Shown here one piece after another: positions 4,473-29,704 of a stretch of DNA of 33,295 nucleotides. Position 1 is the stretch's first letter. Each line of letters begins with the position of its first letter. The notes under the pieces are model-generated. The model worked only from the letters and a program-made list of their open reading frames with translations, made no database searches and was not told the origin of the DNA. Source of the DNA: a virus; IMG/VR virus record IMGVR_UViG_3300046689_000827, positions 1 to 33,295 of that record; one strand, given 5' to 3'. A program made the translations under genes and the position numbers.

Positions 4473-4602
4473 GACCCGGCGGAAGCCCGGCGCGGACCCG
4501 GCGGACACCCGGCGACCTGCATCGATGGGTTGAACGTCCGCCGGGTCGGCGCCGGGGCTACGCCGCCCTCATGCCGGGGTCTTGCCGGGTCTGCGCCGGG
4601 TC
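4473..4602. repeat. Opposed arrays of 11-bp GACCCGGC units; candidate clt or origin
   Basis: Four plus-oriented 11-bp units start at 4473, 4484, 4495 and 4506, each with CCCGGCG at the same register (GACCCGGCGGA, AGCCCGGCGCG, GACCCGGCGGA, CACCCGGCGAC). After a 20-bp spacer containing ATCGAT come six minus-oriented units in exact 11-bp register: 4537-4547 (again GACCCGGCGGA), 4548-4558, a degenerate one at 4559-4569, 4570-4580, 4581-4591 and 4592-4602. The last four overlap the end of the TraB-like gene. The core differs by one base from GACCCGGA, which I recall as the TraB recognition repeat of plasmid pSVH1. An AT-rich box (CATATATG, 4446-4453) lies beside the array. Confidence 0.75.
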
Positions 4603-6639
4603 CAGGAGGCCCGCCGCGGCCCTCTCGACCTCGCTCCGCTTCCAGCCGCGCAGGTACTTCCCCTCGGGGCAGTCGGTGCGGTCCGCCTTCACGCCGGGTG
4701 CGTGCTTGCGCAGCCGGTTGGCAAGTGCGGTCGCGTCCACTCCGTCAACTCCCGCGGCGGCCAGGGCAGGCAGCAGCACCTCGCCTGTCGGCAGGAAGTC
4801 GCGGCCCTTGGCGTGGAAGGCGCGGAGCAGGGCGGCGATGAGCGGCGCGTCGTCGTGGCTGACTGCGTCGAGGCGTTCGGCGAGGTTGCCGCGCTGCCCG
4901 GCCGTCGTCAGGGTGGCGCCGGCCTTGAGGACGGTGTCGCTGTCCATGCGGTTAGCTCCGGCCTTGATGCGGTCGGGGACGGCGGCGGTGATCTGGTCGC
5001 GGGTGTAGCCGTTGAACTGGTAGCGGATGGCCCGGTTGAACGGGCCGCCCATGATCATGGCCTGGCCTGCGTCGTTGGCGACCGGGCCGACGGCGGGCTT
5101 CATCCGGTCCGCTCGCCATCCCTGCGCGCCGGCGCCGGGGCCGAAGGCGATTTTGATGTCTTCGAAGCGGCAGGCCATGAGGATGCGGTAAGCAATGATC
5201 AGGGCGATCGCGTCACCGAGAGCATCTGCGGTGGCTTCCTGACCGGCCATGATGAGGTAGATGCCGTACTGGCGGCCGGTGCGGAGGATGGTGATCGCGT
5301 CGGCCTTGCCCTTGGGGCTGAGCTGGATGAACTCGTCGATGTTGATGTACAGGTTGGGGTGCTTCTCGGTGGCGTGCCAGCGGTCGCCCATACCGAGTGT
5401 GGGCATGAGGTAGCGGCGGGCGGACACGTAGGAGAGGGCCTCCGCCAGCGCCTCCTCGCATTCTTCGGGAGTGCGGGCGCGGCGGGCCATGAGGTCGCCG
5501 AACTCGGCGAGCCCGCCCTTGATCGGGTCGAGGTCCCAGACGACGGCGTCTCGGCACGCGGTGAGCGCTTCGTTGATCGTGCGCAGCGCGCCGAGGGTCT
5601 TGCCCGCCCCCATGGCACCGACGATCAGTGCACAGAACCCGTCGAGGGTCAGCTCGAAGAGGCTGCCGTCCATGGCGCGGCCCATGGCGATGACATCGTG
5701 CACCGACAGGGAGCGGGGGGCGTGCACGGCGGGCCGAGGCATGTCGGCGAACGGGTTCGACTGGACGAGGCGGACGACGATCCGGGACTTGTCCCGCGCA
5801 TCCGGCTCGATCATGAATCCGCCGTCGGGCAACCCGAGGTGGGACTCAAGCTGGTCGGCCTTGCCCTGCACCCCGCCCGGGGTGGAGCCCTTGAGGACGA
5901 CCTCAAGCTCCCAGCCCCAGTCGTGGCGGGCGATCATCTTTATGTCCCGGTAGTCGGCACCCTCGGCGAACAGGGCACGCCCGAGGCAGTCGGCCGCCTG
6001 GCCCCCGCTGGTTACCCACGCGATCGGGTACGGCTCCTCGCCTTCCGGGTTGTCCTGGTCGGCGATCGCCAGCTGAGGTGCAAGCCCGGGGGCGTTGGCC
6101 CGGTAGCGGCCGTACAGGGCGATCCCCGTGAATGTGGCGAGCGCAAGGGTGGAGGGCGTCATCCACCACGAGTCGGCGGCCGTCAGACCCGCGTACTTCA
6201 CGAGCGCCCACCAGCCGGCGAAGTTCAGGCCCGCGGTGATGCCAGCGGCCCAGCCGAGAAGCTTCCAGCGTGCGCGGCGTTCGGCCTTGTTCTGGTTCCA
6301 GTCGGACTTCTTCTGGAGACCCCCAACGGCTTCCTGAAAGTCGTGGGTGCGGATGTATCGCCAACCGAGGACGCCGACGGCGCGGGCGCCGACACCGAAC
6401 CAGCGCATCATGGTGCCGCTGCCGCGAGCGGTCAGTCCGATCGCACGACCGGTGACCGAGGCAACGACCATCGCGGCCGAGCCCGCCTTCCGCAGGACGG
6501 GCAGGCGCGGCTCGTAGGGGACGACGATGCCGGGCGCGATGTCCTCGCCGGACAGGTCGTCGGGCACGTGCAGCTCGCCGGGGATCACCTTGGTGAGGTC
6601 CCAGTCGGCGGGGAACTCGGGGTTCGTGTCGAGGCTCAT
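4558..6639 (-). CDS. TraB/FtsK-like conjugative DNA translocase (693 aa)
   Basis: Predicted membrane-bound ATPase that would pump double-stranded DNA between mycelial cells, as Streptomyces TraB proteins do. N-terminal region about 1-120 is soluble; two membrane segments lie near 126-145 and 160-177. The FtsK/SpoIIIE motor has Walker A GAMGAGKT at 341-348 and Walker B YINIDEF at 431-437, followed by RTGRQYGIYLIMAGQ (sensor region). The last 120 residues resemble a winged-helix DNA-binding domain (LLRAFHAKGRDFLPTGEVLLPALAAAG...). ATG overlaps the stop of the SpdB-like gene. No relaxase is seen, consistent with single-protein double-strand transfer. A cell-division FtsK is unlikely given the plasmid-like context. 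Confidence 0.85.
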   Translation of the reverse strand: MSLDTNPEFPADWDLTKVIPGELHVPDDLSGEDIAPGIVVPYEPRLPVLRKAGSAAMVVASVTGRAIGLTARGSGTMMRWFGVGARAVGVLGWRYIRTHDFQEAVGGLQKKSDWNQNKAERRARWKLLGWAAGITAGLNFAGWWALVKYAGLTAADSWWMTPSTLALATFTGIALYGRYRANAPGLAPQLAIADQDNPEGEEPYPIAWVTSGGQAADCLGRALFAEGADYRDIKMIARHDWGWELEVVLKGSTPGGVQGKADQLESHLGLPDGGFMIEPDARDKSRIVVRLVQSNPFADMPRPAVHAPRSLSVHDVIAMGRAMDGSLFELTLDGFCALIVGAMGAGKTLGALRTINEALTACRDAVVWDLDPIKGGLAEFGDLMARRARTPEECEEALAEALSYVSARRYLMPTLGMGDRWHATEKHPNLYINIDEFIQLSPKGKADAITILRTGRQYGIYLIMAGQEATADALGDAIALIIAYRILMACRFEDIKIAFGPGAGAQGWRADRMKPAVGPVANDAGQAMIMGGPFNRAIRYQFNGYTRDQITAAVPDRIKAGANRMDSDTVLKAGATLTTAGQRGNLAERLDAVSHDDAPLIAALLRAFHAKGRDFLPTGEVLLPALAAAGVDGVDATALANRLRKHAPGVKADRTDCPEGKYLRGWKRSEVERAAAGLLDPAQTRQDPGMRAA

Positions 6640-18735: not shown

Positions 18736-19761
18736 TCACGCGGCCATCGCGTCGAAGTCGGACAGCCGTCGGGCCGGGGCGGCGACTGCGGCGACGAGGA
18801 CCGCGGCGAGCGGCGGGGGCACGGCGTTGCCGACCGTCAAGTGCCGCTGGCCGGCGGTGCCGTGGAAGACCAGGCCGGGCCGGAAGCCCTGGAGCTTCGC
18901 GCACTCGGCAACGGTGGGCCGGAGGTTGGGCCGGGGCGTCTTGCCCTCGGCGGCCTCTTTCGGTGTGGGCCTACGCAGCGGCACGTCCCGGTCCGCCCAC
19001 AGCGGCCGTCCGTCTTCGTCGACGGTGCCGATGGTGCGGGCCATGGCCTGCCGGGTGCCGTTGCCGAACGGTTCCGCGCCGCCCGTGTAGGTGCCGCCGC
19101 CGGTGACGGACGGGGCGGGGCGCTGCGTGTATCCCCAGCCGATGACGTCGGCCATGGCGGTGAGTGCCGGCTGGCCGAGCCCGCCGTGGGTGGGCGCTGG
19201 AAGCACAGCGTCGCGGGTGCGGCTGGCGATGAGGACGGCCCGCTTGCGGCTCTGGCCGAGCCCGTAACGGGCGGCATCGACCACGCCCGCGGTCGCGCTG
19301 TAGCCCCAGCTGCGGAGGATGTCCGCGTACTGCTGCCAGACGGGGAGCACGGACGGCACCTGCTCCATGCAGATCCAGTCCGGCATCAGGTCGGCCATCC
19401 ACCGCATCGGCTCCGCGGTGAGGATCGACCGTTCGTCGCGGCAGGCGGCGCCGATGACGGCCCGGGTGTCCTTGCCGCGGGAGAGGTCTTCGATCGCCTG
19501 GTGCACGAGCGGCAGGTCGAGCAGGCCGAGCTTCTTCCCGGACTTGTTGAAGCCCGGGCAGGGCGGCGACCAGATGCCGCCGTCGGTGCGGCCTTTGAAC
19601 ACCCACGTCGGGTACTGGGTGACGTCGCAGCGCACTGTCGGGTGTCCGGCTTTGTGGCGGGTGAGGGCTGCGGCGGCGTCGAGTTCGAGGCCGATGTCGG
19701 TGAGGCCGAGGGGGCGGATGCCTTCGGACCAGCCGATGCCCGCAAAACCGTGGACGATCAT
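18736..19761 (-). CDS. DNA (cytosine-5-)-methyltransferase (341 aa)
   Basis: Transfers a methyl group from S-adenosylmethionine to cytosine C5. All main motifs are in order: I FAGIGW (6-11), IV PPCPG with catalytic Cys68, VI EQV (133-135; usually ENV), VIII QSRKR (170-174), IX RPTVAECAKLQGF (281-293) and X GNAVPPPLA (311-319). The target-recognition region (about 180-280) is short. The ATG overlaps the upstream gene. No restriction enzyme lies beside it, so it is probably an orphan enzyme protecting the element from host restriction. The EQV variant keeps the key glutamate. Confidence 0.9.
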   Translation of the reverse strand: MIVHGFAGIGWSEGIRPLGLTDIGLELDAAAALTRHKAGHPTVRCDVTQYPTWVFKGRTDGGIWSPPCPGFNKSGKKLGLLDLPLVHQAIEDLSRGKDTRAVIGAACRDERSILTAEPMRWMADLMPDWICMEQVPSVLPVWQQYADILRSWGYSATAGVVDAARYGLGQSRKRAVLIASRTRDAVLPAPTHGGLGQPALTAMADVIGWGYTQRPAPSVTGGGTYTGGAEPFGNGTRQAMARTIGTVDEDGRPLWADRDVPLRRPTPKEAAEGKTPRPNLRPTVAECAKLQGFRPGLVFHGTAGQRHLTVGNAVPPPLAAVLVAAVAAPARRLSDFDAMAA

Positions 19762-20045
19762 GCGGCTTCTCCTTCGGCGCGCTCGTGCGGTCGGGGCAGT
19801 GCGACGACGGCCGCCTGCTCGCACAGCGGGCAGGTGCAGCGGCCGTGCGTCGGGGTGGGGCCGGTGGCGGTGGTGCCGATGGGCCAGCCGCCGGTGTGGG
19901 CGATCCGGTAGCCGGGCTCGACGGGGGCCGCAGCGACCGGGGCCGGCTTCGGGGCCGGGGTGCGGCCGGTGAGGGCGAGCAGGTAGCTCTTGAGGTCACC
20001 GTCTTTGCGGAGGGCGGCGATGTCCTCGGTGGTGGGCTGATTCAT
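19758..20045 (-). CDS. Small protein with cysteine motif, between helicase and methyltransferase (95 aa)
   Basis: The ATG overlaps the TAA of the DnaB-like gene. N-terminal 30 residues are helical (TTEDIAALRKDGDLKSYLLALTG), then a Pro/Ala linker and a C-terminal RCTCPLC motif that may bind zinc. The tight coupling to dnaB suggests a role in replication, for example a helicase accessory factor, but no family was recognised. Confidence 0.7.
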   Translation of the reverse strand: MNQPTTEDIAALRKDGDLKSYLLALTGRTPAPKPAPVAAAPVEPGYRIAHTGGWPIGTTATGPTPTHGRCTCPLCEQAAVVALPRPHERAEGEAA

Positions 20046-21430
20046 TACGTGGCCGCCATGTCGCAGAAACGGGCAAAGTGCCCTTGGAATGCAGTGGTGA
20101 TCGTTGCGGTGGGCCCGTTGCGGTGCTTGCCGACGATCAGGTCCGCCTCGCCGGCGCGCGGGCTTTCCTTCTCGTAGGCGTCCTCGCGGTGAAGCAGGAT
20201 CACGATGTCCGCGTCCTGCTCGATCGCGCCCGACTCGCGCAGGTCGGACACCTGCGGCTTCTTCTCGGTGCGCTGTTCGGGTCCGCGGTTGAGCTGGCAG
20301 AGGACGATGACGCTGATGTTGAAGTCCTTGGCGAGGAGCTTCAGCCCGCGGGACAGGTCGGCGACGGCCTGCTGCCGATTGTCGGCCCGCCCGACTTGCA
20401 TCAACTGCAGGTAGTCGATGATCACGAGCCGCAGGCCTTTGGTGCGGACCAGGTTGCGGACGCGGGCCCGCAGGGTTGCGAGGGACAGCAGGGCGCCGTC
20501 GTTGATGTAGAGCGGGGCTTCGGCGATCGCGTCCTGCACTCGGGCGGCGGCGCGGGCGACGTCGCTGTCGGAGACGACGCCCTGTCGCAGGTGATGCAAC
20601 GGGACGCGGGCCTCGGCGCACAGGATGCGGTCGGACAGGTCGCCGCTGCTCATCTCCAGCGACTCGATGAGCGTGGGAATCTTGTTGCGGATGGCGGCGC
20701 CGCGGGCGAAGTCCTGGGCGATCGTGGACTTGCCCATGGCGGGCCGGGCACCGATCACAATCATCTGGCCGCCGGTGAAGCCCCCGGACAGGAGGCTGTC
20801 GAGGTCGATGAACCCGGTGGGGACGCGGTCTTCGTTGGTGGGTGGGGTGACGGCGCGGATGAGGCTGTCGCCGATGAGGTCGCCGATCGGAGCGAGGTTC
20901 TCTTCGTCCGTGGGCCGGACGGCCCCGTCAAGGTCGGCCTGAATGGCGGCAACGTCGGCGTCCTCATCGAAGGCCGGCGAACTGCCTTTGAGGATGGCGT
21001 CATAGCCGAGGGCGACGACGCGGGCGGCAACGGCCTTCTTGGTGACGCGGGCCGCGTACCAACTGGCGCTGCCGTAGTGGGCCTCGTTGCAGAGTTCCAT
21101 GAGCTGGTCGGCGGGCGGCACGCGGGTGGGCATGCGACCGTCGGCATGCCAGGCCTCGAGCTGCCGGTGCACGGCGAGGTGCTTCAACTCGCCATCCCGG
21201 AAGACGGTGCGCAGCGCCTCGACCGCGAACCAGGACCAGCGCAGCCAGTCGATGGTGATGTCGGCCGGGTCGAAGCCCTCGGCAGCAAGTTCGTCGACGG
21301 CGGCGGGCTGCATGATCGCGGTGGCGACGAGGACCCGCTCGGCTTCGAGGTCGCAGGGTCGAGACGGCGGGCGCGGGCCGGCGTCGGCGACATCCTCGTC
21401 GGGAGCCCACATTTCGGTTTCGGTGGTCAC
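20045..21430 (-). CDS. dnaB: DnaB-like replicative helicase (461 aa)
   Basis: N-terminal domain about 25-170 starts with the typical CDLEAERVLVATAI. The RecA-like motor has PTGFIDLDSLLSGGFTGGQM, Walker A GARPAMGKST (227-236), SLEMS (257-261), Walker B LVIIDYLQL (335-343), QLNRGPEQR (379-387), SDLRESGAIEQDAD (395-408) and GKHRNGPT (434-441), so all catalytic parts are present. Length is normal for phage DnaB. GTG start overlaps the 80-aa gene. With the DnaC-like loader and the initiator it forms the element's own replisome-recruiting set. Confidence 0.92.
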   Translation of the reverse strand: MTTETEMWAPDEDVADAGPRPPSRPCDLEAERVLVATAIMQPAAVDELAAEGFDPADITIDWLRWSWFAVEALRTVFRDGELKHLAVHRQLEAWHADGRMPTRVPPADQLMELCNEAHYGSASWYAARVTKKAVAARVVALGYDAILKGSSPAFDEDADVAAIQADLDGAVRPTDEENLAPIGDLIGDSLIRAVTPPTNEDRVPTGFIDLDSLLSGGFTGGQMIVIGARPAMGKSTIAQDFARGAAIRNKIPTLIESLEMSSGDLSDRILCAEARVPLHHLRQGVVSDSDVARAAARVQDAIAEAPLYINDGALLSLATLRARVRNLVRTKGLRLVIIDYLQLMQVGRADNRQQAVADLSRGLKLLAKDFNISVIVLCQLNRGPEQRTEKKPQVSDLRESGAIEQDADIVILLHREDAYEKESPRAGEADLIVGKHRNGPTATITTAFQGHFARFCDMAAT

Positions 21431-21669
21431 GCGGGGTTCTCCTGGCTGGGGGTGGCGAACTGGGCGGCGAAGCAGGTGTCGCAGTTGCGGTCGCCGCACG
21501 GCCGACCGGCCGCATGAGCGGCTTCGATGCGACGGAACTCAGCGCGAATCTCGGGGCTCTTGACGATCCCGTTAGCGATCCAGAAGGCGAGCTTCCAGGT
21601 GTCGACATCGCAGTTGACCTGCTGGGCGATCAGGTGACGGAGTCGGTCGTCGGCGGGTGGGTAGCTCAC
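21427..21669 (-). CDS. Small protein between loader and helicase (80 aa)
   Basis: GTG start in a GTGA overlap with the DnaC-like gene, and its own stop overlaps the DnaB start. The N-terminal half is helical (DDRLRHLIAQQVNCDVDTWKLAFWIANGIV); the C-terminus has a CGDRNCDTCFAA cluster (three cysteines) that could bind zinc. Likely a replication accessory factor by position only. Confidence 0.75.
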   Translation of the reverse strand: MSYPPADDRLRHLIAQQVNCDVDTWKLAFWIANGIVKSPEIRAEFRRIEAAHAAGRPCGDRNCDTCFAAQFATPSQENPA

Positions 21670-22379
21670 GCGGCCTCACCCCGACGGCGGTCCGGGCCCT
21701 TGAACACGACGCGCTGGCACATCTCGATGAGCCGGCTGGTGACGCGGTCGCCGAGACGTTCGCTGATCTCCTTCGGCACCAAGTTGGAGGTGATCAGCGT
21801 CGGCAGGTGGTTCTCGTAACGCCAGTTGATGAGCCGGAAGTTAATCTCTTCGGTGAACTCGGTGGGCTTCCTCTCGGCGCCGAGGTCGTCGACGAGGAGC
21901 ACCGACGCGTTGCGGTAGCGGTGGAACTCGGCCTCGGAGTCGATGCCGTGGCGGGGACGGAGCGCGGCGTACAGGTCGGCCGCGGTGGTGACGACCCACG
22001 TGGCGGCGACGCCGGCGATCGCCAGTTCGCGGATCGCGCCGTAGGCCTGGTGGGTCTTGCCCGTGCCGGTCGGACCGAGCAGCAGCAGGGAGCGTCCGCG
22101 AGTGACGGAGCCGACGGGTGCGCCGCGCTCGGCCTGAGTTTCGCGCGCCTCGGCGATGAGCTCCTGAAGCCAGGCCTGGATCTCGGGGCTGTCGGCGATG
22201 GCAGCTCGGTAGTGGAACGGGATGATCTTGGCGGCGGCGACGATGGAGTAGCGGGCGACGTTGGCGACGCTGTACGGGTCGGCGTCACCGGAGTTGAGCC
22301 AGGCGAGGTCGACGCCGCGGACGGCGAGCATCTGCTCGAGGTGGTATCGCTTCGGGTTGATGGGCGGGATCCACTGCAT
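21666..22379 (-). CDS. DnaC/DnaI-like helicase loader (237 aa)
   Basis: An AAA+ ATPase that would load the DnaB-like helicase at the origin. Walker A GPTGTGKT (102-109), Walker B VLLVDDLGAE (160-169), sensor-1 TLITSNL (194-200) and an arginine-bearing segment DRVTSRLIEM (211-220) are all present. The N-terminal 95 residues are probably the helicase-binding part. It starts three bases past the stop of the initiator gene and leads into dnaB. Confidence 0.88.
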   Translation of the reverse strand: MQWIPPINPKRYHLEQMLAVRGVDLAWLNSGDADPYSVANVARYSIVAAAKIIPFHYRAAIADSPEIQAWLQELIAEARETQAERGAPVGSVTRGRSLLLLGPTGTGKTHQAYGAIRELAIAGVAATWVVTTAADLYAALRPRHGIDSEAEFHRYRNASVLLVDDLGAERKPTEFTEEINFRLINWRYENHLPTLITSNLVPKEISERLGDRVTSRLIEMCQRVVFKGPDRRRGEAA

Positions 22380-22381
22380 GG

Positions 22382-23320
22382 TCAGTTCCAGTCCTGGTTG
22401 TAGTCGGAGTCGTCTGCGTGATTGCGGTGGGGTTCGTAGCCGCCTACGGCGTGCAGATGGCGGCCGGGCGGCGTGTCGGGCTCGTCGTCGTAGCAGCCGT
22501 TGTTGAGCCAGGTCGCCGGGTACTTCGTGTACTTGGGTTCCTGGTCTTTGCGCTCTTGGGCGTAGGCCTTGGCGGCGTCGACCATCTGCTGGGGCTCTGC
22601 GCCGCGTTCGATGGCGGCGGTCCAGGCCTTCTTGGCGGCTTCCTTGTCCCGTCGCTTCGGGTAGGTCAGCCAGAAGGCGCCGAAGGCCTCGAGGTGGTGA
22701 TCTTTCTTCTCGCTGCCGCTCTTGGTCTGAACCGAGGCGACCGGCTTCTCGGGCTGGTTCGCGACGGCTGCGGGAGAAGAGTCTTCTAGTAGTTGTTTGT
22801 CTGACGGTTGTTGGTGGTTAGGGCTGCGTTCCGTGCGTGACGAACGGACTTTAAGTGCGTGACATTCGTCGGTCACGGACTCTGCGTGCGTGACAGTCAC
22901 GCCTTCTACGTCCGTGACGGTCACGGACTCTGCGTGCGTGACACCCTTCGAGCGGGACCGGCGCTTCCGCTCCGCGGCGGCGGCACGGAACTCGTCCTCC
23001 TCGCGCTCGAGGTTGCTCCAGTCGGTGGCCGGGCGACGCAGTTCCATCGCGAGCTTGTAGCGGGTGCGTCCTTCACGAGTTCCGTCCTTCGCGATCAGTC
23101 CGGTCTTCTCGAGCCGGCGCAGGGCGCGCTGAACGGTGGCCCGGTCGTAGCCGGTGCGGTACTGGATGCGGAGCACGGAGGGATGCGCGTCGATGCCGGT
23201 CGGACTGGCGTGCTCAGCGAGCGCCTGAAGGACGTGCCGGGCAGTCGTGTCCGGCTTCCCCTTCTCGGTGCGCGGCATGGGCGCCTGGTCCATGGCCCAC
23301 GTGACGGCCTCAGTACTCAC
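22382..23320 (-). CDS. Winged-helix replication initiator with in-gene iterons (312 aa)
   Basis: GTG start after GAAGGAAG. Residues 20-95 form a winged helix (TARHVLQALAEHASPTGIDAHPSVLRIQYRTGYDRATVQRALRRLEKTGLIA). The middle has an octapeptide repeat (residues about 127-150: VTHAESVT repeated with variation), which is exactly where the DNA iterons lie. The C-terminal 100 residues (LEAFGAFWLTYPKRRDKEAAKKAWTAAIERGA...) match the phage replication-protein FWxxYPKK domain. Placement before DnaC- and DnaB-like genes supports an initiator (a lambda-O-type arrangement). Confidence 0.82.
   Translation of the reverse strand: MSTEAVTWAMDQAPMPRTEKGKPDTTARHVLQALAEHASPTGIDAHPSVLRIQYRTGYDRATVQRALRRLEKTGLIAKDGTREGRTRYKLAMELRRPATDWSNLEREEDEFRAAAAERKRRSRSKGVTHAESVTVTDVEGVTVTHAESVTDECHALKVRSSRTERSPNHQQPSDKQLLEDSSPAAVANQPEKPVASVQTKSGSEKKDHHLEAFGAFWLTYPKRRDKEAAKKAWTAAIERGAEPQQMVDAAKAYAQERKDQEPKYTKYPATWLNNGCYDDEPDTPPGRHLHAVGGYEPHRNHADDSDYNQDWN
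22833..22942. repeat. Iterons inside the initiator gene; candidate replication origin
   Basis: Forward units GTGCGTGAC begin at 22833, 22855, 22886 and 22934, with a variant GTCCGTGAC at 22910. Inverted partners GTCACGGAC lie at 22872 and 22920, and a variant at 22896. From 22871 the DNA is three tandem 24-bp units; units one and three share 25 identical bases (22871-22895 and 22919-22943). Lambda O, by comparison, binds iterons within its own gene. The encoded protein shows an eight-residue repeat as a by-product. Confidence 0.75.
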
Positions 23321-26830: not shown

Positions 26831-27141
26831 GACGCGGACTCCTCTTCAACGATTTCGGCGTCCCGGGTGGGCAGCTCGGCCTCGAGCTCGGCGTCCGTCA
26901 TCAGGTAGGCGGGGATGCGGCCGTGGATGAGTGCGTGCCGGATGTCGTTGCCGGCCTGCCGGATCTGCATGGCCCGGCCGCGGCCAGGGTCGGTGGTGGC
27001 CTGGTCGGCGATCTGCAGGTAGCGGTCGGAGAGCAGGCCGAGAGCGGTCTGCATCTGGACGGCCTTGTCGTGGATCGGGTCGTAGCCGGGGTCGCTGTGG
27101 GTGAGGGCCGCGACGACTCGGCGCCAGAAGGAGCTCTTCAC
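26827..27141 (-). CDS. Helical hypothetical protein (104 aa)
   Basis: GTG start in a GTGA overlap with the exonuclease gene. MKSSFWRRVVAALTHSDPG is followed by helices (KAVQMQTALGLLSDRYLQIADQATTDP, then RAMQIRQAGNDIRHALIHGRIPAYLM) and an acidic tail. No family recognised. Confidence 0.65.
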   Translation of the reverse strand: MKSSFWRRVVAALTHSDPGYDPIHDKAVQMQTALGLLSDRYLQIADQATTDPGRGRAMQIRQAGNDIRHALIHGRIPAYLMTDAELEAELPTRDAEIVEEESAS

Positions 27142-27935
27142 TTGTCGCCTCCGAACGGGATGAGCGGCCACGCCTGCTCGACACGCACGTCGGGCTTCAT
27201 GCGCCGCAGGTGCTCTTGCAGGGATCGGGCCTGTTCCGCGGCCCAGCCGATCTGTGCCGCATGCAGCTGGTCGAGGTCGAGGTCGGTGAGGTCGTCGAAC
27301 CGCTGGTGGTGGTCCCAGGTGACGAACTCGGGCCGGTCGGCGTGCGGGGTCTGCGCGAGCGACCCGATGCGGTAGGCGATGCGGGCGGACATCAGTGCGT
27401 CGTACTCGCTGCCGTGCGCGGCCTCCTCGTCCCACCCGAAGCCGTAGACCTGCGCAAGGGTGACCAGTTGGCGGGGGCCCTGGCTCTGCGAGATGCGGCG
27501 CCGCCGGGGCAGGACATGCTGGTCGAGGACGCGGGTGTCGATGACGCGCATCCGCGCCAGGTCGAAGGCTTCGTCGAGGCCGCAGCCGAGGTGCCGGCGG
27601 GCTTCGCGGTCGAGGAGGGTGAGGTCGAAGACGACGTTGTGGCCGACGATTGGAATGCCGCGGGTGACCGCTTCACCGACTGCGGTGACGACGTCTCCGA
27701 CGACATCCTTGGCCGGATTGCCGTTCGCGTGGGCGTGGTCGGAGCTGATGCCGTGGACGGCGCGGGCGGCCTCCGGGATGTCGGCGCCGTTGAGGTCGGA
27801 CAGCCAGTTCAGCGGGACGGTGTCTTCGCCGCCGCCGACGTAGATGGCGGACGCGGTGACGATCAGGTCGCGGTCGACGCTGATGCCGGTGGTTTCCGTG
27901 TCGATCGCACAGAGCCTTTGCTCATGCCAGCTCAC
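27138..27935 (-). CDS. DnaQ-like 3-prime to 5-prime exonuclease, DEDDh type (265 aa)
   Basis: DTETTG at 12-17 supplies the first two acidic metal ligands; IVGHNVVFDLTLLD (96-109) carries the third (D104); HGSEYDA (174-180) holds the fourth with the catalytic histidine H174, as in the epsilon subunit of DNA polymerase III. An extra C-terminal helical part (about 200-265) is likely a partner-binding tail. Such enzymes trim DNA ends in phage recombination. It sits two genes from the RecT-like annealing protein and could process ends for it. Confidence 0.88.
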   Translation of the reverse strand: MSWHEQRLCAIDTETTGISVDRDLIVTASAIYVGGGEDTVPLNWLSDLNGADIPEAARAVHGISSDHAHANGNPAKDVVGDVVTAVGEAVTRGIPIVGHNVVFDLTLLDREARRHLGCGLDEAFDLARMRVIDTRVLDQHVLPRRRRISQSQGPRQLVTLAQVYGFGWDEEAAHGSEYDALMSARIAYRIGSLAQTPHADRPEFVTWDHHQRFDDLTDLDLDQLHAAQIGWAAEQARSLQEHLRRMKPDVRVEQAWPLIPFGGDK

Positions 27936-28450
27936 GACGCCTCACCGGCCTCGATCTGCAGGAGGTTCAGGTGCGCCAGGGCTCCGGTGCGCCAGGCTTC
28001 GGCGATGGCTTCCTTGCCGCCTGTGGACGGGCGGACGGAGTGGGTGAGCGCCCGGGTGGCTTTGACCTCGACGCCGGGGACGTCGTGGAGCTCGCCGGTC
28101 TCGGTGTCGACGATGCGGGGGACGCCTGCCGCGGTCATCTGGGCAAGGAGCGTGGTGCGGTAGGCGGGCCGGACTTCGGTCACGAGCCGGGTGGTGACCT
28201 CGCCGGGGGCGATGCTGCGGACGAAGTCGCGGAAGGCGTCGTCGTCGATGACGACGGCTGCGGGCTTGGCGTCGGAGCGGCTGATGGTGGCGACCTTGGT
28301 GCCGTCCGGCAGGGTCGCGGTGACCTTGGAGATTCCGTTGCCGACGAGCTGCTCTTGCATGGCGTTCTTCACCTCCTTGAGGCGGTCGTTGACGGTGTCG
28401 GAGAGGGCTTTGAGGGCGGCCTCTTCGAGGGCGAGCTGTGCGATGTCCAT
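27932..28450 (-). CDS. Conserved-looking protein next to RecT and exonuclease (172 aa)
   Basis: ATG start at 28450 preceded by GGAGCCCCC. N-terminal helix (LEEAALKALSDTVNDRLKEVKNAMQEQLVGNG) leads into a strand region (KVTATLPDGTKVATISRSDAKPAAVVIDD) and a C-terminal helical part. A hairpin separates it from RecT. It resembles the small proteins that often accompany phage RecT operons, perhaps an exonuclease partner; no family name is certain. Confidence 0.75.
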   Translation of the reverse strand: MDIAQLALEEAALKALSDTVNDRLKEVKNAMQEQLVGNGISKVTATLPDGTKVATISRSDAKPAAVVIDDDAFRDFVRSIAPGEVTTRLVTEVRPAYRTTLLAQMTAAGVPRIVDTETGELHDVPGVEVKATRALTHSVRPSTGGKEAIAEAWRTGALAHLNLLQIEAGEAS

Positions 28451-28477
28451 GGGGGCTCCGTGGTTTGCTGGTGGGGT

Positions 28478-28506
28478 GGGCCGGCCCGATTGCCGCGGGC
28501 CGGCCC
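28478..28506. terminator. Hairpin after the RecT gene
   Basis: GGGCCGGCCC occurs twice (28478-28487 and 28497-28506) and, being palindromic, pairs as a 10-bp stem around a nine-base loop, 13 bases beyond the RecT stop. It may reduce read-through from RecT into the exonuclease train. Confidence 0.6.
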
Positions 28507-28518
28507 GTCCTGTGCGGG

Positions 28519-29643
28519 TTAGGCGGCGGGGCGGATTTGTGCGGCGAGGGTGCGGATCGCGTTGGCGGAGGCGTCTTCGATGGAGCAGCCGAGGGCGCTG
28601 TATGCGCCGTTTTCGAAGTCGCTGAGGTTCGCGGCTTCGGCGGCGGCGCGCAGCTCGGCGACAGCGGCGGCGTGGTCGGCTTCCTCGTCGGGGACGACCT
28701 CGCCCTCGACCACGTCCTCGTCTTGCCCCTCGGGCCCGGTGGGCTGCGGCTCAGCAATCGCCTTCGCCCTGCGGGTCAGGTACTGGCCGAGCTCGCTGAT
28801 CTCACCGGTGTCGGCGGCCAGTACCGGGGCCTCCATCAGGCGCCCCGTCTTGGCCAGCCCCCACAGCTCGGAGATGCGCTCCTTGCCGGTGGCCTTCTCC
28901 GCCTGGTCTGCGATCTCCTGCGCCGGCTTGTGCGGTTCGACCCGCGGGGCCTCCGCGGTCTGCTGCGGCGCGGTGACTGGGGTGGCCCACGGATCAGCCT
29001 CGCCCTGCTGGACGCTGCGAAGGTGCCGCTCCTCCGGGGCCGGGTTGTCGGCCTGAGCCATCTCCTCGGCCGTGTACACCCCGGCCAGGTCGTGCGGGAA
29101 GGCCTTCCGCAGCGCGAGTGCCTCCGCGCACTTCGCGAGCTGGCCAGCGGGCATTTTGCCCCACAGGCCGATCGACTTGTTCTCCTTGCCGGTCTGCACG
29201 TACTCGCGGAACAGCGCCACTGCGGGGAACCGCTGGCCGTTCCGAATCACCGTGACCTTCACGCCGGAGGGCGGCGTCTCGGACAGCCACACGTCCCGCC
29301 ACTGGCCGTCCTTGTCGCACCAGAGGGTGTCCTCGTAGCCGAGGTCGGCGTTCTGCTCGGCGACGACGCGGTGAGCGATGACTCGGTAGCCGTCGATGCT
29401 GGTCTGCGGGGTGTACACCTTGCGCTGCTGCCGACTGTCCCAACGGCCGATGAGGTAGATCTGCCGGGAGAACGGGTCGAGGCGAGTGCGCTGGCAGAGG
29501 TGGAGGAACGCGGACAGTTCCGCGGCGGTCACCTGGTTGTCGATGCCGGACTGCTGGAGTACTGCCTGCTGCGCGGGAGTCCAGTCAGTCTGGTCGGGGC
29601 GGATGGCGAGTGCGCCGCCTGCCTGGACGAGGTCGGTGCTCAT
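28519..29643 (-). CDS. recT: RecT/Bet-family single-strand annealing protein (374 aa)
   Basis: CAGGAG precedes ATG 29643; the longer upstream reading has no ribosome site and is rejected. Residues about 15-200 match phage recombination protein Bet: LSAFLHLCQRTRLDPFSRQIYLIGRWD, then the sheet region SIDGYRVIAHRVVAEQNADLGYEDTLWCDKDGQW, ending with AKCAEALALRKAFPHDLAGVYTAEEM. The C-terminal 170 residues are acidic and helical, likely flexible. It promotes annealing of single strands during recombination and repair, with the exonuclease downstream as plausible partner. Confidence 0.88.
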   Translation of the reverse strand: MSTDLVQAGGALAIRPDQTDWTPAQQAVLQQSGIDNQVTAAELSAFLHLCQRTRLDPFSRQIYLIGRWDSRQQRKVYTPQTSIDGYRVIAHRVVAEQNADLGYEDTLWCDKDGQWRDVWLSETPPSGVKVTVIRNGQRFPAVALFREYVQTGKENKSIGLWGKMPAGQLAKCAEALALRKAFPHDLAGVYTAEEMAQADNPAPEERHLRSVQQGEADPWATPVTAPQQTAEAPRVEPHKPAQEIADQAEKATGKERISELWGLAKTGRLMEAPVLAADTGEISELGQYLTRRAKAIAEPQPTGPEGQDEDVVEGEVVPDEEADHAAAVAELRAAAEAANLSDFENGAYSALGCSIEDASANAIRTLAAQIRPAA

Positions 29644-29704
29644 TGGTGGTGCTCCTGTTCGCTGCTGAGCTGCGTGTTCTGCGTGAAATGGGTGCACTGA
29701 AGGC

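Follow-up and report, generated by a model that had tools for sequence, protein, structure and literature searches.

In a Streptomyces phage, replication appears to start within the initiator gene, and one amino acid of the initiator may go with one base of the site

Introduction

Why does the gene for a putative replication initiator carry, in its middle, an array of short repeats in both orientations? Are the repeats there for the sake of the protein or of the DNA, and if the latter, which part of the initiator might read them? The stretch of DNA that raises these questions (the window) is a virus record of 33,295 bases. A Streptomyces phage appears to hide the start of its replication inside the gene of the protein that recognizes this start, and comparisons of related genes suggest that a single amino acid of the initiator is linked to a single base of the site.

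Results

The initiator gene and its neighbors

The putative initiator comprises a winged helix, a long basic helix, a disordered linker, and a C-terminal domain (Table 1). It matches HTH_36 (32.6 bits, with a cut-off of 25) and PHROG 270 (replication initiation protein), which spans residues 24-286. In the AlphaFold2 model, each of the winged-helix blocks has a mean pLDDT of at least 88, and the helix at residues 100-125 is unbroken. The basic end of this helix sits directly ahead of the array, and it includes A115, K119, and S122, which are the columns that track the type of iteron (see below). Residues 129-205, which are encoded by the array and the AT-rich stretch, have pLDDT under 50 and are modeled as a disordered linker. 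Among solved structures, we found generic winged helices only and no close relative.

The initial annotation described the neighboring genes as DnaC- and DnaB-like, which is borne out by their matches to PHROG 50 and DnaB_C. Both genes lie downstream of the initiator in all 20 of the close loci that we examined. Just past the helicase gene is a C5 cytosine methylase-like gene (18736-19824, - strand). A DnaQ-type exonuclease and a RecT-like annealing protein are encoded near the replication genes (27138-29697, - strand), as they are in the Streptomyces phage TurkishDelight, and the window also encodes an FtsK/SpoIIIE-like protein (4558-6639, - strand; PHROG 12531, E = 4e-89). None of the window proteins that we tested was recognized as structural. 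The record could be a fragment of a larger phage, or a phage-like element.

Table 1. Features of the replication region (positions in the window).
Feature	Position	Strand	Details
Replication initiator gene, 312 aa	22382..23320	-	HTH_36, E = 6.9e-8; PHROG 270, E = 2e-32; AlphaFold2 model
Winged-helix domain, codons 1-90	23051..23320	-	AlphaFold2 helices 3-12, 25-36, 49-56, 60-73; strands 76-82, 85-90
Long helix, codons 100-125, basic end AxxRKRRSR	22946..23023	-	AlphaFold2 helix 100-125
Iteron array, eight half-sites, consensus GTCACGSAC, core GTCAC	22833..22942	-	Inside the initiator gene
Half-site 1, GTCACGCAC	22934..22942	-	Reading frame 0
Half-site 2, GTCACGGAC	22920..22928	+	
Half-site 3, GTCACGGAC	22910..22918	-	Forms GTGACnGTCAC with site 2
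Half-site 4, GTCACGCCT	22896..22904	+	Weakest match
Half-site 5, GTCACGCAC	22886..22894	-	Partner of site 4
Half-site 6, GTCACGGAC	22872..22880	+	
Half-site 7, GTCACGCAC	22855..22863	-	Reading frame 1
Half-site 8, GTCACGCAC	22833..22841	-	Reading frame 2
Near-absent synonymous variation, codons 154-180	22781..22861	-	Includes half-sites 7 and 8 and the greater part of the AT-rich stretch
AT-rich stretch, candidate DNA unwinding element	22773..22832	.	Low stability, low GC
DnaC-like helicase loader	21666..22379	-	PHROG 50, E = 4.9e-40
DnaB-like replicative helicase	20045..21499	-	Pfam DnaB_C, E = 1.8e-87

An array of half-sites within the gene

As the initial annotation had it, there are iterons inside the initiator gene: we found eight half-sites with a GTCAC core. 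They had been described as alternating units in three tandem 24-bp blocks at 22833-22942. The blocks are present but at 22872-22943, where Tandem Repeats Finder reports a 24-bp unit in 3.0 copies; the units at 22833 and 22855 lie outside of them. These two outer units are in other reading frames, and they are the most telling part of the array. The three blocks hold six half-sites, alternately rightward and leftward, and the junctions of the blocks are GTGACnGTCAC, which are the paired inverted half-sites that had also been proposed. The blocks encode the octapeptides VTHAESVT, VTDVEGVT, and VTHAESVT. Some relatives have one further site, in the same order (8-9 half-sites overall).

The block pattern matches six times in the window (three places, both strands), while 0.07 matches were expected, and none of 100 shuffles reached six. 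Similarly, the best-clustered 7-mer has five copies in the initiator gene, which none of 100 synonymous-codon shuffles matched. These two sets of shuffles rule out chance repeats and confirm that the in-gene repeats are real. The clustering, not the word count, carries the signal, because the 10-mer alone (with one mismatch allowed) is no more common in the window than expected by chance (17 vs. 13.15).

The repeats are selected as DNA

To compare close relatives, we used 16 of 24 loci from viral contigs, along with four loci from genomes, all of Streptomyces. (We left out the fragment L017 and the distant loci L019-L025, which matched only elsewhere in the sequence.) With the window, these gave 16 distinct ORFs.

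The exact 9-mer is present in all three reading frames in all 16 of these ORFs. It occurs 51, 16, and 16 times in frames 0, 1, and 2, where it is read as VTH, (C/R)HA, and SRT, so a protein repeat cannot be the cause. Also, the valine codons of the array are GTC in 58/58 left arms and GTG in 48/48 right arms, as the palindrome demands; the other valines in the same genes are mixed (125 GTC, 46 GTG, 11 GTT, and 10 GTA). The ratio of synonymous differences is 0.66-0.75 at codons 91-125 (windows starting at 91-111), about 0.2-0.3 in the blocks, and just 0.02-0.10 over about codons 154-182, which include half-sites 7 and 8 and the AT-rich stretch. Within codons 154-180 (Table 1), variation is limited to 16 of 81 nucleotide columns, which is the lowest proportion among 12 stretches. 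The DNA of the array is free to be selected because it is coded in a disordered linker (pLDDT near 33).

Could a VT-rich peptide repeat have been selected for its structure in the protein, with the DNA repeat merely following? The three blocks do share one frame and encode octapeptides, and a looser count (the core with up to two mismatches) is only weakly above synonymous-codon shuffles (107 of 2,000 reach it); such words are to be expected from any VT-rich protein, which weakens this count. But the same 9-mer is found in three frames, the choice of valine codons follows the palindrome, the region is disordered, and out-of-frame residues change (such as H to N) when the base of the site switches. 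Selection on the peptide is thus hardly credible, and we reject it. The comparisons show that the repeats are selected as DNA, with the octapeptide repeat as a by-product, which is what the initial annotation had proposed.

The array and its AT-rich neighbor as a candidate origin

Adjoining the array is an AT-rich stretch that was absent from the initial annotation. Only one other 40-bp window in the 33 kb is less stable than positions 22773-22813. In the window and its relatives, the GC content of the AT-rich stretch is 45-51%, as compared to 66-68% for the gene. Judging from these sequences, we put the probability at roughly 0.78 that the array and the adjoining AT-rich stretch are the phage's replication origin, inside its own initiator gene, and that residue 119 of the initiator is the main discriminator between GTCAC and GTAAC sites (see below). 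The arrangement fits an origin of the lambda or SPP1 type within an initiator gene.

Alternatively, the array might be an autoregulatory operator that dampens transcription of the initiator, with the origin elsewhere. Sites within the gene would block transcription of the initiator, the loader, and the helicase together. Also, GC skew, which had been suggested as a check on the origin, does not switch at the array; this is consistent with an operator but is uninformative as evidence about the origin. However, 8-9 sites exceed what an operator needs, the array adjoins an AT-rich stretch with almost no synonymous variation, and gene 38 of phage SPP1 holds an origin that is made up of repeats and an AT-rich DUE (DNA unwinding element), as described in PMC6316719. 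We consider an operator in place of an origin to be quite improbable.

The array stays with the front of the protein

The initiator of TurkishDelight shares its N-terminal 104 residues (67%) and its array with the window, but its C-terminal part is different. The window's DnaC and DnaB are unmatched in the surrounding 12-kb stretch of TurkishDelight. Using the N-terminus of TurkishDelight as the query, we found 47 loci with several types of C-terminus, all of which have arrays. These comparisons tie the array to the N-terminal part of the protein, and the rear part to the supply of helicase.

Such N-termini were matched in 9 of 392 genomes from the genus Streptomyces and in 8 of 394 from its family. 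A phylum-wide search with L127 hit only G001 among 396 genomes, and a plasmid collection gave two distant matches. The initial annotation had stated that its reading would be refuted by related elements that have the initiator gene without the repeats and still replicate; all 62 of the related N-terminal regions that we compared carry an array.

Concerted switching from GTCAC to GTAAC

These 62 comparable regions (which exclude the truncated ORF L178 and L171, where no ORF was found) include 58 with GTCAC-type arrays and four of the GTAAC type. In two of the four, L044 and L080, which were among the loci found with TurkishDelight, every half-site is GTAAC (or its complement, GTTAC), in every frame, and there is no GTCAC array. 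The other two, L180 and L184, are from genomes. The switch alters out-of-frame residues, for instance from H to N.

Only columns 115, 119, and 122 separate the 58 GTCAC proteins from the 4 GTAAC proteins without overlap. Column 115 is A in all 58 and T in all four. Column 119 is K (44) or Q (14) in the GTCAC type and V in the GTAAC type; and column 122 is S (53) or A (5) in the GTCAC type and H in the GTAAC type. These three columns are i, i+4, and i+7, which lie on one face of the helix (0 to 40 degrees to one side on a helical wheel, and 340 to the other).

In a tree of the winged helix only, the four GTAAC rows are not grouped, and three changes are needed. All three independent pairs on this tree agree with the linkage between the helix and the base. 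The choice of base follows the basic helix behind the winged helix, rather than the winged helix.

The same rule on other initiator domains

We scanned viral contigs for two GTGACnGTCAC pairs that are 24 bp apart and found 51 stretches, of which 33 belong to this family in whole or in part and 10 belong to other initiator-like genes; the remaining 8 are unclear. The corresponding scan for GTTACnGTAAC found 26 stretches, mostly low-complexity VT repeats or non-initiators. The scans hit initiator-like genes that have other front domains and a similar basic segment before the array (L214, L216, L225/L242, L269, and others). L214 matches PF09681 (E = 8.4e-43). We also fetched 13 named phages, most of which show a basic helix and then an array.

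After examining these 13 phages, and before fetching 80 further loci, we noted a rule: K goes with GTCAC, V goes with GTAAC, and Q goes with either. The 80 loci were the best from an alignment search with the PF09681 domain, in which 570 of the 600 scanned stretches encode a relative. The survey included 93 ORFs, of which 75 were distinct by their first 200 residues. We set apart five that lacked the motif and kept 70, and we scored the type of array within 150 bp of the helix.

Among the genes with an array beside the helix, on the GTCAC side were all of those with K119 (19/19) or N119 (11/11), or 30/30. On the GTAAC side were all of those with V (26/26), A (3/3), Q (4/4), L (2/2), M (2/2), or T (1/1), or 38/38. 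(N, A, L, M, and T were grouped only after seeing the data.) Two of the 26 genes with V, from PaeP54 and Silvergun, belong to another domain, not PF09681. If we consider only the new rows from viral contigs, obtained after the rule was noted, then 16/16 with K have GTCAC and 22/22 with V have GTAAC, but the V counts overstate independence because many of these rows are close streptococcal relatives. When we left the helix out of the domain tree (66 rows, excluding PaeP54, Silvergun, and the two genes that have no array next to the helix), seven changes were needed, and 6/6 supported independent pairs agreed with the rule (p = 0.031). Overall, there are nine independent switches, which is a small number.

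The two motif genes without an array beside the helix are 055SW001 (V) and L284 (Q). The initiator gene of Bacillus phage 055SW001 (L281:844-1614) encodes a V-type helix but lacks an array, and this phage may have its origin elsewhere. L284, which is on the same contig as L214, has an HNH segment after the helix, and a GTCAC array further on. In the PF09681 initiator at L214:4051-5208, the basic helix and the array are separated by an HNH endonuclease segment that is in frame. The full motif is missing from five distinct genes, of which one has GTAAC sites and the other four lack an array; L285 has an array and an incomplete motif.

Q119 is ambiguous: it goes with GTCAC in 14/14 Streptomyces-type proteins and with GTAAC in 4/4 PF09681 rows, yet with GTCAC in L214. 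The rows with M119 have mixed arrays (1:2 and 1:3).

The key residues of the helix are i, i+3, i+4, i+7, and i+8, often with Asn at i and Arg at i+8; the code residue is i+4. In eukaryotic bZIP proteins, the basic region has N-x7-R spacing, and the half-sites are GTCA and GTAA. Because the spacing of the residues matches, a bZIP-like reading that arose by convergence is possible. We do not claim homology.

A natural swap of helix and array

CRBO, L347, and L361 combine GTCAC arrays with the helix NRIRKQRQR, while L319 has the helix NRLRLRKFR and GTAAC. The first 108 residues of all four are identical. This 108-residue domain cannot choose the base of the site, because the identical domain goes with both arrays. 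Between L347 and L319, just 26/49 bases are identical across the helix and the array, as compared with 60/60 at the start and 58/60 close to the end. Because the helix and the array adjoin, they were likely exchanged as a cassette.

Adjacency raises another explanation: the residues of the helix and the base of the iteron might be linked merely by being exchanged together, and the base might be read elsewhere in the protein, for instance by the winged helix. The difference between CRBO or L347 and L319 does resemble a local replacement of the helix and the array, and joint transfer of adjacent elements needs no contact between them. But the identical domain pairs with both arrays, and the rule holds in array sequences that otherwise differ (L184 vs. 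L080). Furthermore, residues and bases are matched in the same way on unrelated domains, which linkage by itself does not explain. Linkage without reading by the helix therefore seems unlikely.

We lean, if only slightly, towards a portable cassette of a basic helix and a GTNAC array, common to unrelated domains and to phages of Streptomyces, Firmicutes, and Gram-negative hosts. In its code, K or N would go with GTCAC, and V or another small hydrophobic residue would go with GTAAC, maybe in a bZIP-like manner by convergence.

Discussion

A proposed mechanism

In the mechanism that we propose, the initiator would be made early and would bind the array inside its own gene, probably as dimers on GTGACnGTCAC pairs of the GTCAC half-sites. 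Past the winged helix, the long helix would use its basic end to read the middle base of the half-site, with residue 119 (K in the window) as the main discriminator, while the winged helix probably positions the dimer and contacts the backbone. Filling all eight half-sites would strain open the AT-rich stretch, and the C-terminal domain would pass this melted DNA to the loader and the helicase, which are DnaC- and DnaB-like. Comparative sequence analysis shows selection at the level of DNA, concerted switching of sites, and linkage between the helix residue and the site's base. For binding, dimerization, melting, and loading, we infer by analogy with lambda and SPP1, as described in PMC7466680 and PMC6316719.

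What the rule would mean

Origins are already known to lie within initiator genes, as in lambda and SPP1. What appears to be new is that residues of a helix are linked to the base of the site across unrelated domains. In the open-access literature that we searched, we did not find a rule for reading the sequence of the origin off the protein. If the rule holds, then the type of origin could be predicted for thousands of annotated replisome organizers, and the VT-, GN-, or CNA-rich linkers of these proteins would be explained as origin DNA. Naturally occurring phage pairs that share a domain but differ in specificity would be a ready test of how initiators recognize and change their origins.

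Comparison with known systems

The initial annotation called the iterons lambda-O-like. The iterons within the gene and the AT-rich tract are indeed a lambda-style design, but the window protein does not match Pfam's O family (Phage_rep_O); three Pfam families were found, none of them O. Weak PHROG matches are named O-like (E = 7e-9). In lambda, as described in PMC7466680, the iterons lie midway in the initiator gene, next to an AT-rich tract; the initiator is dimeric, and a loader gene is next door. The window shares the in-gene iterons, the AT-rich tract, and the neighboring loader gene with lambda O and ori lambda. Whereas lambda has four direct iterons, the window and its relatives have 8-9 half-sites in both orientations, with GTGACnGTCAC pairs. 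Also, unlike lambda O, the window protein matches HTH_36 and has a basic helix.

According to PMC6316719, gp38 of the Bacillus phage SPP1 binds repeats within its own gene at oriL, with an AT-rich DUE and genes for a loader and a DnaB-type helicase. The window has counterparts of the repeats within the gene, the AT-rich stretch, and the loader and helicase genes, and its initiator probably binds the repeats as well. The repeats of oriL are reported there as direct, while those of the window are in both orientations. The Rep of Lactococcus phage Tuc2009 is also similar to the window's initiator in that its record states that the gene contains the origin of replication. In Tuc2009 Rep, we saw other repeats but no GTNAC array and no basic-helix motif.

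Other initiator-like genes have other iterons. The HTH_36 initiators of Pseudomonas phage vB_PaeS_AV001 and Kineococcus plasmid pKRAD01 have the same type of winged helix as the window, and have in-gene clusters of GGGTGCA (7 and 9 copies, which 0/100 codon shuffles reached). We did not see an AxxRKRRSR segment in either translation. More broadly, the linkers of HTH_36-type initiators from a Pseudomonas phage, a Kineococcus plasmid, and an oral phage have 5-9 copies of GGGTGCA or GTGCAAA iterons (L189:2001-2840, L190:2001-3179, and L032:1916-2839). In Gordonia phages Daredevil and Yvonnetastic (L033:1910-2902 and L193:1491-2312), the initiator's linker has a 5-bp tandem repeat, CGACC, that codes for RPDPT repeats. 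Six initiator-like genes (L246, L248, L251, L254, L256, and L267) have GTTACGGTAAC arrays, which are read as SYGN, behind the helix AAAxRAxKHAEKK; L246 matches RepA_N.

Finally, the replisome organizers of Firmicutes phages with PF09681 (Phage_rep_org_N) differ from the window's initiator in having another N-terminal domain and shorter arrays, and the window protein does not match the PF09681 profile. Yet they resemble it in having the helix (residues 106-132 in a model of PF09681), the GT(C/A)AC array, and an AT-rich stretch in the linker.
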